A stretch of 64,000 nt of DNA from Phenylobacterium sp. J426 (lineage in GTDB: Bacteria > Pseudomonadota > Alphaproteobacteria > Caulobacterales > Caulobacteraceae), in assembly GCF_024699945.1 (NCBI RefSeq), contig NZ_JAJOMY010000001.1, positions 2,356,001 to 2,420,000 on the forward strand, written 5' to 3'. Below are positions 2,342-5,315 of this stretch, in pieces (within the stretch, counting starts at the first letter, position 1; each line of letters starts with the position of its first letter). The translations under genes and the position numbers were made by a program. The notes beneath the pieces were generated by a model. The model searched no databases, had not been told where the DNA came from, and saw only the letters and a program-made list of their open reading frames with translations.

Positions 2342-2356
2342 GAACAAATGTGGAAC
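2342..2356. promoter_or_regulatory. LexA (SOS) box, alphaproteobacterial type
   Basis: The sequence is GAAC, seven bases (AAATGTG), then GAAC. This is an exact match to the direct-repeat operator GTTC-N7-GTTC (here its complement) known for LexA in alphaproteobacteria. It sits 14 bases before the ATG of the radical-SAM/UdgX operon and 53 bases from the divergent transglutaminase start. LexA bound here would cover the operon promoter. Eight fixed bases can match by chance in a window of this size; the position in front of DNA-repair-type genes is what makes it persuasive. Confidence 0.7.
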
Positions 2357-2370
2357 CTTAGGTTGGGCGG

Positions 2371-3597
2371 ATGGCGGTTCTAGACCTCAAGCGCAAGCTC
2401 GCCATCCTCTCCGATGCGGCCAAGTACGACGCGTCCTGCGCCTCCTCCGGGAGCGTGAAGCGCGACTCCATGGGTGGGAAGGGCGTGGGCTCCACCGACG
2501 GGATGGGCATCTGTCATGCCTATGCGCCGGACGGCCGATGCATTTCGTTGCTCAAGATCCTCCTGACCAACTTCTGCGTCTACGACTGCGCCTACTGCGT
2601 GAACCGGGTCAGCTCGAATACGCCCCGAGCGCGGTTCACCCCGGAGGAGGTGGTCGACCTCACACTCGGCTTCTACAAGCGCAACTACATCGAGGGGCTG
2701 TTCCTCTCGTCCGGCATCATCCGCAACGCCGACTATACGATGGAGCAGCTTGTCCGGGTCGCGAAGCTGCTGCGCGAGGTCCATGACTTCCGCGGCTACA
2801 TCCACCTGAAGGTGATCCCCGAAGCGTCGCCGGCCCTGGTGAATGAGGCGGGTCTCTACGCCGACCGCCTGTCGATCAACATCGAGCTGCCGAAGGACGA
2901 GAGCCTGGCCGCCTTCGCTCCGGAGAAGGATCTCGGCGACATCAAGAAGGCCATGGGCGCGGTGCGCGTGGGCGTCGACGCCGCCAAGGAGCCGGCGCGT
3001 AAGGCGAGGCCTCCGAAGTTCGCGCCCGCTGGTCAGTCGACCCAGATGATCGTCGGCGCCGACGGGGCGTCGGACGGCGAGATTCTCAAGCGCTCGGAGA
3101 CGCTGTACGGGGCCTACCGGCTGCGGCGGGTCTACTATTCCGCCTTCTCGCCGATCCCGGACTCCACCGCGCGTCTGCCGCTACAGCGGCCGCCGCTGGT
3201 GCGCGAGCACCGCCTCTACCAGGCGGACTGGCTGATGCGCTTCTACGGTTTCGAGCGCGCCGAGATCATCGGCGAGGGCGAGGACCTCGACCTCACCGTC
3301 GACCCCAAGCTCGCCTGGGCGCTGCGCAACCGTGGCGACTTCCCCGTCGACCTCAACAGCGCCGACCGTGAGCGGCTGCTGCGGGTGCCTGGGCTTGGCG
3401 TCCGCGCCTGCGATCGCATCCTCGACCTACGCGGCCACAAGCGCATCGTACTGGAGGACGTGAAGCGCCTGTCCCGCGGCCTCGCCAAGCTGAAGCCCTT
3501 CATCGTCACCGACGACTGGCGGCCGGGCGGTCTTACTGACGCCGCGGACCTGAAGGCGAGGCTGGCGCCGCCGCCGAAGCAGCTGGAGCTTTTCTGA
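2371..3597 (+). CDS. putative DNA modification/repair radical SAM protein
   Basis: A 408-residue enzyme with the radical-SAM cluster motif CX3CX2C at Cys69, Cys73 and Cys76 (NFCVYDCAYC), which binds a 4Fe-4S cluster and S-adenosylmethionine. A second region ends in a helix-hairpin-helix-type DNA-binding element at about residues 328-352 (LNSADRERLLRVPGLG). This layout matches the family TIGR03916, known to be encoded beside UDG-family proteins and presumed to act on DNA; its reaction is not established. It overlaps the next gene by one base (TGATG), so the two are translationally coupled. An alphaproteobacterial LexA box lies 14 bases before the ATG, which predicts induction by DNA damage. 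No signal peptide. Confidence 0.9.
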   Translation: MAVLDLKRKLAILSDAAKYDASCASSGSVKRDSMGGKGVGSTDGMGICHAYAPDGRCISLLKILLTNFCVYDCAYCVNRVSSNTPRARFTPEEVVDLTLGFYKRNYIEGLFLSSGIIRNADYTMEQLVRVAKLLREVHDFRGYIHLKVIPEASPALVNEAGLYADRLSINIELPKDESLAAFAPEKDLGDIKKAMGAVRVGVDAAKEPARKARPPKFAPAGQSTQMIVGADGASDGEILKRSETLYGAYRLRRVYYSAFSPIPDSTARLPLQRPPLVREHRLYQADWLMRFYGFERAEIIGEGEDLDLTVDPKLAWALRNRGDFPVDLNSADRERLLRVPGLGVRACDRILDLRGHKRIVLEDVKRLSRGLAKLKPFIVTDDWRPGGLTDAADLKARLAPPPKQLELF

Positions 3598-5039
3598 TGG
3601 AGGTCGTGCGGCTGGCCTCCGAGACCGACCTGGCAGGCTGGCGCAACGCCGCGCGCAACCTTCGCGCAGCCGGCGTCCCTCCGGAGGCCGCGCTCTGGAC
3701 CGTCGATGGCGACGCCAGCCTGTTCGCCGGCGAGGGGGGGCCAGCGCCCGCGGCGGGCGCCGCCCCCTTCACCGTTCCGCGCGAGTTCGTTGAACTCGCC
3801 CAGCAGGTGATCCTCTACCGGTCGGACGAGCGCTTTTCCCTGCTTTACCGCCTGCTCTGGCGGCTGCAGGTCGAGCCGAACCTGATGAAGATCACGACCG
3901 ATCCGGACGTCGACAAGGCCCGCCTTTTCGCCCGGGCAGTCTCGAAGGCCGCCCACAAGATGAAGGCGTTCGTCCGCTTCCGGGAGGTCTCCGACGAGGA
4001 TGGGGAGGCCTTCGTCGCCTGGTTCGAGCCCGCTCACCGCGTCACCGAGGCCACCGCACCGTTCTTCGCCAAGCGCTTCGCCAACATGCGCTGGTCGATC
4101 CTGACGCCGGACGCCTGCGCCCACTGGGACACCCACACCCTGAGTTTCACGCGCGGCGCCGACCCTGCCGATGCGCCGATCTCGGACGCGCTGGAGGACT
4201 ACTGGCGCACCTACTACGCCTCGATCTTCAACCCCGCCCGGCTGAAGGTTTCGGCCATGCAGAAGGAGATGCCCAAGCGCTATTGGCGGAACCTGCCGGA
4301 AGCCGGGCTCATTCCCGAACTGATCGCCCAAGCCGAGGCGAGGACGAGCGAGATGGTCCGCCAGGCGCCTTCAGAACCCGAACGCCGCATCGTCAAGGCT
4401 GAGCCCCGCGCCCGCGCCGCCGCGGCCGACGGCAGGATCGAGGGCCGCGCGCCCGCCAGTCTCGAGGAAATCGCCGAGGCCATCCAGGTCTGTCGCCGTT
4501 GCGACCTCTGGCGCGACGCCACGCAAGGCGTGCCCGGCGAGGGGCCGAAGCAGGCGCGGCTGATGTTCGTCGGCGAACAGCCCGGCGACCAGGAAGACCT
4601 CGCCGGTCACCCGTTCGTGGGTCCCGCCGGCCAGATGCTGGACAAGGCGCTGGCCGAGGCCGGCGTGCCGCGCGCCGAGACCTACGTCACCAACGCGGTG
4701 AAGCACTTCAAGCACGAACTGCGCGGCAAGCGGCGCATCCACCAGACGCCGAATACGAGCGAGGTGAGCGCCTGCCGCTGGTGGCTCGACCACGAGCGGC
4801 AGCTGGTTCGGCCGCGCGTGATCGTCGCCCTGGGCGCGTCGGCAGGCTTGTCGGTCTTCGGCAAGCCGACCCCCATCGCCAAGTTCCGCCAGCAGGGCCT
4901 GCAGCTGCCTGACCAAACCCAAGGCGTCGTCACCTATCACCCGTCCTACCTGCTGCGCGTGCCGGACGCGGACGCCAAGGCCAAGGCCTACGCCATGTTC
5001 GTCGAGGACCTGAAGTTCGCCTGGAAGCTGGCGGCCTAG
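3597..5039 (+). CDS. udgX: DUF4130-UdgX fusion, uracil-DNA-binding protein
   Basis: A 480-residue fusion. Residues about 50-230 are a DUF4130-type domain (FVELAQQVILYRSDERFSLL) with a conserved WFEPAHRV region. Residues about 285-480 are a family-4-like uracil-DNA glycosylase fold with the iron-sulfur-type cysteines (CRRCDLW), motif GEQPGDQEDL and the closing motif YHPSYLLR. The insert RGKRRIHQTP contains the KRRIH loop, with His382 in the position that in mycobacterial UdgX attacks and stays covalently bound to the uracil site. The product is therefore expected to form a covalent adduct with uracil-containing DNA rather than turn over. It is coupled to the upstream radical-SAM gene and shares its LexA box. 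Confidence 0.92.
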   Translation: MEVVRLASETDLAGWRNAARNLRAAGVPPEAALWTVDGDASLFAGEGGPAPAAGAAPFTVPREFVELAQQVILYRSDERFSLLYRLLWRLQVEPNLMKITTDPDVDKARLFARAVSKAAHKMKAFVRFREVSDEDGEAFVAWFEPAHRVTEATAPFFAKRFANMRWSILTPDACAHWDTHTLSFTRGADPADAPISDALEDYWRTYYASIFNPARLKVSAMQKEMPKRYWRNLPEAGLIPELIAQAEARTSEMVRQAPSEPERRIVKAEPRARAAAADGRIEGRAPASLEEIAEAIQVCRRCDLWRDATQGVPGEGPKQARLMFVGEQPGDQEDLAGHPFVGPAGQMLDKALAEAGVPRAETYVTNAVKHFKHELRGKRRIHQTPNTSEVSACRWWLDHERQLVRPRVIVALGASAGLSVFGKPTPIAKFRQQGLQLPDQTQGVVTYHPSYLLRVPDADAKAKAYAMFVEDLKFAWKLAA

Positions 5040-5051
5040 AGGAGAACGCCG

Positions 5052-5315
5052 ATGACCGACCCCGCGCCAACCCACATCGACCAGCAGGACCCAGGCAAAC
5101 CGTCGGGCCTCTCGATCCGCGAGGAGGCCGACCGCGAGATCGAAGCCTACGACGACCTCGCCAACCTCATCCTGCTAATGCCGGAGGAGCGCTGGGCGGA
5201 GTTCCTTGAGGGTGAAGGCGTCCAGGCCGCCGACGCCGAAGGCGAAGCGCGATACCGCGGCGTGCTCTTCCGGAAGGCGGCCGTCACCGCGGTCGTCGCC
5301 CAGGAAGGCTTCTGA
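5052..5315 (+). CDS. hypothetical protein, 87 aa, third gene of the rSAM-UdgX run
   Basis: A small acidic protein, not recognised, beginning MTDPAPTHIDQQDPG. It has a predicted helical middle (EADREIEAYDDLANLILLMPEERW), no membrane segment and no signal. It starts 12 bases after udgX stops, with the ribosome-binding sequence GAGGAGA at 5040, so it is probably co-transcribed with the LexA-boxed operon. Whether it belongs to the repair function or is just a passenger cannot be told. Confidence 0.6.
   Translation: MTDPAPTHIDQQDPGKPSGLSIREEADREIEAYDDLANLILLMPEERWAEFLEGEGVQAADAEGEARYRGVLFRKAAVTAVVAQEGF

Follow-up and report, generated by a model that had tools for sequence, protein, structure and literature searches.

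We describe a putative SOS-regulated operon of Phenylobacterium sp. J426 that encodes a radical S-adenosylmethionine (radical-SAM) protein, hereafter rSAM, and a protein in which the DUF4130 and UdgX domains are fused. The operon is located in a stretch of 64,000 nucleotides (contig NZ_JAJOMY010000001.1, positions 2,356,001 to 2,420,000), here called the window, in a genome of 4.64 Mb; unless noted otherwise, coordinates refer to the window, and the parts of the operon lie on its forward strand. The predicted LexA operator at 2342..2356 (GAACAAATGTGGAAC) is an exact instance of the alphaproteobacterial direct repeat GAAC-N7-GAAC (GTTC-N7-GTTC on the other strand) and ends 14 bases before the ATG of the rSAM gene at position 2371. 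The rSAM gene (2371..3597) encodes 408 amino acids, and its stop codon shares one base with the ATG (3597) of the DUF4130-UdgX open reading frame (ORF; 3597-5039) in the sequence TGATG. An initial annotation, made from the sequence alone, had described the box and its spacing, the one-base overlap, the radical-SAM cysteine motif and the KRRIH loop of UdgX, and we found all four as described.

Profile comparisons and signature residues show that all three domains belong to known families. The rSAM protein scores 550.4 bits against TIGR03916 (curated cut-off 343.5) and contains the cluster motif CX3CX2C, formed by Cys69, Cys73 and Cys76 (2575..2598). The DUF4130 domain (residues 1-236, 3597..4304) scores 208.8 bits against TIGR03915 (curated cut-off 112.25), and the UdgX domain (residues 287-475, 4455..5021) scores 338 bits against TIGR03914 (cut-off 189.95). 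Motif A of the latter, GEQPG (residues 326-330, 4572..4586), includes Gln328, the equivalent of Q53 in UdgX of Mycobacterium smegmatis, and the R-loop KRRIH (residues 378-382, 4728..4742) ends in His382, the equivalent of the cross-linking residue H109. The glutamine of motif A and the arginine and histidine of the R-loop constitute the UdgX signature according to the accessible part of PMC10359453, and Gln328, Arg380 and His382 are kept in all 72 aligned sequences. A search with the pattern KRRIH overlooked roughly half of these loops, as variants such as KRRLH exist; in the aligned column, histidine is present in 72 of 72.

The initial annotation had also counted a small acidic protein gene as part of the operon. 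The reading frame (5052-5315) does begin 12 bases beyond the DUF4130-UdgX gene, and the isoelectric point of its product is 4.27. No relative was found in 142 loci, of which 33 (L031-L063) are too short to contain one, so that at most 109 are informative; we therefore left the small gene out of the module.

The presence of the LexA box in the window is not significant by itself. There are two exact boxes in the window compared to 1.14 expected, and 31 of 100 shuffled sequences reach two. The second site (GTTC-N7-GTTC at 3774-3788) is situated within the DUF4130 reading frame and is probably a chance occurrence, given the expected number per window. The operator upstream of the rSAM gene becomes significant through its conservation across relatives. 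It is exact in all 33 loci of the same family and class (window included; two of these loci, L043 and L055, have identical upstream sequences) and in 78 of 80 loci from named genomes, where the two exceptions (L089 and L143) have a box with one mismatch at or near the same place. In a merged set of 130 loci from the class, from which identical upstream sequences and those shorter than 100 bases had been removed, 128 contain an exact GAAC or GTTC box with the N7 spacer and the other two differ by one mismatch, compared to 4 of 130 for a reversed control pattern. This set includes the window, one IMG/VR contig and a few metagenome-assembled genomes of loosely named Pseudomonadota. The background elsewhere in the loci amounts to 4 sites in 127 kb and 31 sites in 818 kb, or about 0.01 expected per promoter. 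As a check on its claim of SOS control, the initial annotation had proposed to look for the box before orthologous operons, and the claim passed this check.

Outside the Alphaproteobacteria the box differs in sequence and occupies the same place. Among 17 loci from other Pseudomonadota, 12 have an exact CTGT-N8-ACAG box of the Escherichia coli type, compared to none of 17 with the reversed control, and three more have one mismatch, with the second half reading CCAG. The change of the box from class to class at a constant position suggests that the promoter kept its LexA control while the LexA motif itself changed.

In the genome of Phenylobacterium sp. J426, the same motif is found upstream of the lexA and recA matches, at distances of about 40 and 120 bases, respectively. 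Boxes are also located in front of yifB, dnaE (loci L258 and L255) and a gene of the PA0069 family of radical-SAM proteins; the last (L256:501-1499, C1:3562996 onwards) begins 24 bases past a GTTC-N7-GTTC box. These come from 15 of 113 sites selected by AT-rich spacers, together with 30 further sites; 10 ORFs near boxes were scanned, and the three named here look like SOS-type genes while the others, such as mraZ and a regulator of the arsR type, do not. Taken together, the predicted operator and its conservation in relatives strongly support SOS control of the operon and place it in the presumed LexA regulon. This control is not new for the gene pair. In the accessible part of PMC8565304, LexA-type regulation of the pair COG1573-COG4277 is predicted in Bacteroidetes, and Verrucomicrobia and Alphaproteobacteria are cited for SOS regulation. 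Within the literature searched, the additions of the present analysis are the extent of the conservation, the boxes of the CTGT type and the loci that lack UdgX.

The rSAM protein ends in PKQLELF, and its residues 404-408 (QLELF, 3580..3594) form a predicted binding motif for the beta sliding clamp, as a C-terminal Q-L-x-L-F is the clamp-binding consensus (PMC4549789). The strict pattern QLx[LI]F occurs within the last 14 residues of 89 of 159 rSAM relatives compared to none of 1839 control ORFs, and the looser Q[LMA]x[LIM][FWL] in 131 of 159 compared to 4 of 1839. The controls are the other ORFs of at least 200 amino acids in the same loci, taken in six frames and hence not all of them genes. 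The 159 relatives, which represent 161 loci minus two without a closed rSAM reading frame, have 140 distinct C-termini, 81 of which contain the strict form. Many of the 28 exceptions to the loose pattern are near variants (QLSLAL, QLQLI, QLSLGF, QLSLI, QLGFGF); others have the motif further in (L155 and L157), and a few lack any recognisable form. None of 120 DUF4130-UdgX proteins and none of 33 stand-alone DUF4130 proteins contain QLx[LI]F. The loose motif is found in 69 of 77 rSAM proteins that are accompanied by UdgX and in 21 of 27 that are not. In the structural model of the rSAM protein, the predicted local distance difference test score (pLDDT) of residues 404-408 is below 50, and we regard QLELF as a predicted docking motif in a probably exposed tail.

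In some relatives the pair is mixed with the genes of the imuA-imuB-dnaE2 mutasome. It sits between imuB and dnaE2 and is co-directional with them in 11 of the 80 named loci, all of them from Sphingomonadales; three more loci are partial, two of them ended by the contig (L113 and L130) and one with dnaE2 only (L150). The families of the neighbouring genes were established on locus L109, where a carbonic-anhydrase-like gene on the opposite strand separates imuB from the rSAM gene and the latter has a box of its own. A head-to-head arrangement with imuB-dnaE2 is found in a member of the Hyphomonadaceae (L094) and in family f148 (L269-L272), with imuA detected in four of these five loci. In L273, too, the pair is located in or beside the mutasome cassette. 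The f148 loci share one box between the two operons, and L094 has two close boxes, one of them inside the range aligned to imuA. In a sample of 299 Pseudomonadota genomes, 53 contain an rSAM gene, which lies within 10 kb of dnaE2 in eight of them. DnaE2 scores over the cut-off in 45 of these 53 genomes compared to 69 of the 246 others, by a hand count that is uncorrected for kinship.

The linkage to the mutasome genes also fits a mutagenic role, in which the enzyme would change a base (thymine has been suggested in PMC3765255) and thereby allow bypass by DnaE2 or another error-prone polymerase, at the price of increased mutation. Such a role was predicted earlier, in the accessible part of PMC3765255, where a figure about SOS operons has a legend that calls DUF4130 mutagenesis-related. 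It agrees less well with the eight rSAM genomes that have no DnaE2 over the cut-off, and we consider it unlikely.

The features of the rSAM protein itself bear on its possible chemistry. The CX3CX2C motif is kept in all 160 rSAM sequences, and a further set of residues near the N-terminus (Cys23, Cys48 and Cys57 with His49; 2437..2541) is kept in 159 of 160; we consider this region a candidate second metal or Fe-S site. The model has low pLDDT for residues 21-51. The exception is a diverged relative from Gemmatirosa (L156:4001-5146, 35% identical), which lacks these three cysteines and the histidine but has CX3CX2C and, close to the C-terminus, a QLSLW stretch; it perhaps represents a sister family that lacks the second metal site. 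A search of PDB sequences with the rSAM profile found no relative at E 0.01, and a search of a viral structure library gave no useful match. Among the structural matches listed for the model, the best are HydE, LipA and BioB, which are silent on the substrate; spore photoproduct lyase is absent from that list, which does not exclude its fold. The gene is also found on 158 records of a plasmid collection, some of them chromosome-sized, mostly from Phaeobacter and then from Paracoccus, Azospirillum, Leisingera and Agrobacterium; two relatives were found in viral contigs.

A second alternative is that the enzyme directly reverses one photoproduct or cross-link in the manner of spore photoproduct lyase, with clamp docking of minor importance. 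The SOS control of a radical-SAM gene would suit this possibility, as SplB is SOS-regulated in several species and the PA0069-family radical-SAM gene of the same genome has a LexA-type box of its own. The missing sequence relative in PDB, the three extra invariant cysteines and the best structural matches listed, uninformative on the substrate as they are, argue in the other direction, and we rate direct reversal as somewhat less likely still than a mutagenic role.

The distribution of the three domains indicates which parts of the module belong together. In the same sample of 299 genomes, the numbers with a score over the cut-off are 53 for TIGR03916, 56 for TIGR03915 and 52 for TIGR03914. 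DUF4130 is present in all 53 rSAM genomes, while UdgX scores over the cut-off in 40 of them and not in the remaining 13. Twelve of these 13 genomes have a box before the rSAM gene (nine exact, three with one mismatch), and one, G311, has none. Conversely, 12 of the 52 UdgX genomes lack rSAM, and in 10 of these 12 the UdgX frame is 310 residues or shorter. The overlaps were counted by hand, and absence of UdgX means absence of a match over the curated cut-off; several such genomes have weaker matches to other uracil-DNA glycosylases. Of the 80 named loci, 70 contain the fusion, one has UdgX in another frame, eight have DUF4130 without adjacent UdgX, and one is ended by the contig; for loci, absence refers to the neighbourhood of the rSAM gene and not to the whole genome. 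In the Pseudomonadota loci without UdgX beside rSAM, a LexA box is present in 20 of 21 (16 exact, four with one mismatch). Records from Parabacteroides, Spirosoma and Acinetobacter have rSAM followed by DUF4130 alone, and TIGR03914 has no match in any of five records, including a 3.66-Mb A. baumannii and a 2.63-Mb Acetoanaerobium, two of the five being only plasmid-sized. On a FastTree phylogeny of 104 rSAM sequences, the presence of UdgX requires at least 11 changes, eight of which are forced by well-supported branches; the tree excludes L143, L130 and four records in which the partner gene was unclear, and carries a long-branch warning for L155. As the rSAM-DUF4130 pair is complete, and mostly preceded by a box, in genomes without UdgX, we take these two proteins to be the core and UdgX to be an addition.

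This distribution bears directly on the mechanism suggested in the initial annotation, in which UdgX acts as a covalent trap for uracil, and the adduct so formed is reversed or processed by the radical-SAM enzyme. The genes are fused or adjacent, His382 is invariant, and Alphaproteobacteria mostly have both, with UdgX beside rSAM in 71 of 80 loci, all of which speaks in its favour. The mechanism fails to explain why each partner occurs without the other, why rSAM and DUF4130 stand alone in Parabacteroides, Spirosoma and Acinetobacter, and why loci without UdgX keep both the LexA box and the clamp motif; we regard it as improbable. The broader claim of the same annotation, a role in DNA repair, is supported by the genomic context.

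Some unusual arrangements were seen around the DUF4130 gene. Two loci (L098:6277-6768 and L146:4153-4638) have a small acidic gene, apparently of hemerythrin type as judged by eye, inserted between the rSAM and DUF4130 genes, and a deaminase-like frame occupies the same position in L082. In L274 (G445:C1:2496000-2506500), a DUF4130-UdgX gene with a LexA-type box in front is arranged head-to-head with imuB-dnaE2. No rSAM gene turned up in this case, which makes it a rare form, and the completeness of the genome is given as 100%. An unfused DUF4130 without rSAM lies about 2.7 kb from dnaE2 at G512:C1:2460171-2460815, and a DUF4130 fragment with an internal stop adjoins a UdgX frame, again without rSAM, at G308:C1:5487547-5487696; the last two look like decaying copies. 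A PDB sequence search with the DUF4130 profile gave nothing useful, and no other family emerged from a Pfam scan of 66 DUF4130 members.

That the protein is a DNA modification or anti-phage defence enzyme, as the family name "putative DNA modification/repair" and the copies in the plasmid collection might suggest, is highly improbable given that none of the three proteins has a PADLOC match at E 0.01, that the LexA box is nearly universal in the class and that polymerase genes adjoin the pair in part of the relatives.

These results lead us to propose that the module processes lesions at replication forks during the SOS response. LexA would repress the operon by binding to the predicted operator, and DNA damage would release the promoter. 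The functional core would consist of the radical-SAM enzyme and DUF4130. The C-terminal QLxLF tail of rSAM would dock on the beta sliding clamp, and the enzyme would therefore work at stalled forks or forks engaged in translesion synthesis, where ImuB and DnaE2 work. DUF4130 may hold the (single-stranded) template, and the radical-SAM barrel, possibly together with a second metal site at Cys23, Cys48 and Cys57, may perform a radical reaction on a damaged template base, letting synthesis continue. UdgX, where fused, would remove uracil from the exposed template and stay covalently attached to the abasic site, thereby protecting it against strand breaks. We think that a chemical change of the damaged base in place is likelier than an action on protein or RNA. 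Taking place and time of action together, we judge SOS-induced, clamp-docked lesion processing alongside translesion synthesis to be, on balance, probable; our confidence in any one reaction is much lower. A bolder version makes the radical-SAM enzyme a permanent part of the bacterial translesion machinery, tethered to the clamp, that chemically repairs or rewrites template lesions at the fork, and makes the fused UdgX a bacterial counterpart of HMCES, which locks abasic sites so that the polymerase finishes without a break. We offer this version tentatively and consider it doubtful.

Several observations weigh against the proposed fork-associated role. The pair in the window lies about 720 kb from dnaE2, outside the mutasome cassette, and the evidence from gene neighbourhood therefore concerns the family and not this particular locus. 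The eight rSAM genomes in which no DnaE2 reaches the cut-off (among them G293, where it is split in two pieces) indicate that the mutasome is not required. The relatives on which the counts are based are non-independent samples. No box was recognised in two loci from non-alphaproteobacterial Pseudomonadota (L232 and L234), and only one of 10 records from plasmid and phage collections (Bacteroidota, Clostridia, Gemmatimonadota, Acinetobacter and gut scaffolds) has an exact box of the tested types, which exclude the LexA motif of Bacteroidota; the record in question, L160, is a gut scaffold that carries two Bacillus-type GAAC-N4-GTTC sites, and the records lacking such a box include Acinetobacter. 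The C-terminal helix-hairpin-helix mentioned in the initial annotation, a putative DNA-binding element, does give a signal at residues 310-351 (3298..3423), which is weak and below the Pfam gathering cut-offs (HHH_5, E 0.0021; HHH_3, E 0.0026). A likeness of DUF4130 to RecJ, for which there is a weak structural lead, has no sequence support; the profile comparison gives E 0.26 compared to 0.3 for an unrelated control. Finally, our literature searches found no experimental work on the rSAM protein or DUF4130, nor any on clamp binding.

The rSAM pair is widespread, as shown by the 53 of 299 sampled genomes, and its NCBI family names still read "putative". The predicted clamp tail, the LexA control that appears to have outlasted a change of motif and the mixing with imuA-imuB-dnaE2 in relatives suggest a place and time of action, and the lesions met by stalled polymerases as the target. 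The family is a known one, and its position now makes its role testable. UdgX, a laboratory tool for uracil mapping and base editing, would gain a natural setting as the optional arm of an SOS module.

The proposed module resembles several known systems. The part proposed for UdgX at forks is comparable in effect to that of HMCES/YedK, a covalent shield of abasic sites. HMCES/YedK has the SRAP fold and a different chemistry, and is unrelated to UdgX. The ImuA-ImuB-DnaE2 mutasome is a polymerase complex, unlike the rSAM module. We know of no radical-SAM member of that mutasome. The two are alike in that the mutasome, according to the accessible part of PMC10421592, is SOS-induced and docks on the clamp by a short motif (QLPLWG, on which ImuB depends), as is predicted here for rSAM, and the genes of the two systems are mixed in three lineages.

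The closest published descriptions concern the gene pair itself. One "radical SAM protein", its family unstated, appears in the list of a study of LexA in Streptomyces (PMC9380542). The pair is not named in the main text of papers on the Caulobacter damage response, as judged by term searches of the main text, and the open-access literature searched contains no paper on UdgX together with radical SAM, nor one combining the sliding clamp, radical SAM and LexA. By its names, the COG1573-COG4277 operon of PMC8565304 is the same gene pair; the accessible part of that paper calls it base excision repair, explained by ribonucleotide misincorporation, and, unlike the present analysis, treats neither forms without UdgX nor the clamp motif. 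The part of PMC3765255 accessible to us ties DUF4130 to radical-SAM proteins, uracil DNA glycosylases and, by the subject of the figure, mutagenic SOS operons; it does so in one sentence of a legend, with the partner called SplB-like and with no operator, clamp motif or analysis of the dependence between the parts. UdgX of Mycobacterium smegmatis, as described in the accessible part of PMC10359453, shares the R-loop KRRIH and the glutamine of motif A with the UdgX domain in the window, which matches the sequence of the solved structure with E 4e-50. The mycobacterial protein was solved as a stand-alone protein with chains of about 205-229 residues, whereas the domain described here is fused to DUF4130 and encoded after rSAM with a one-base overlap.

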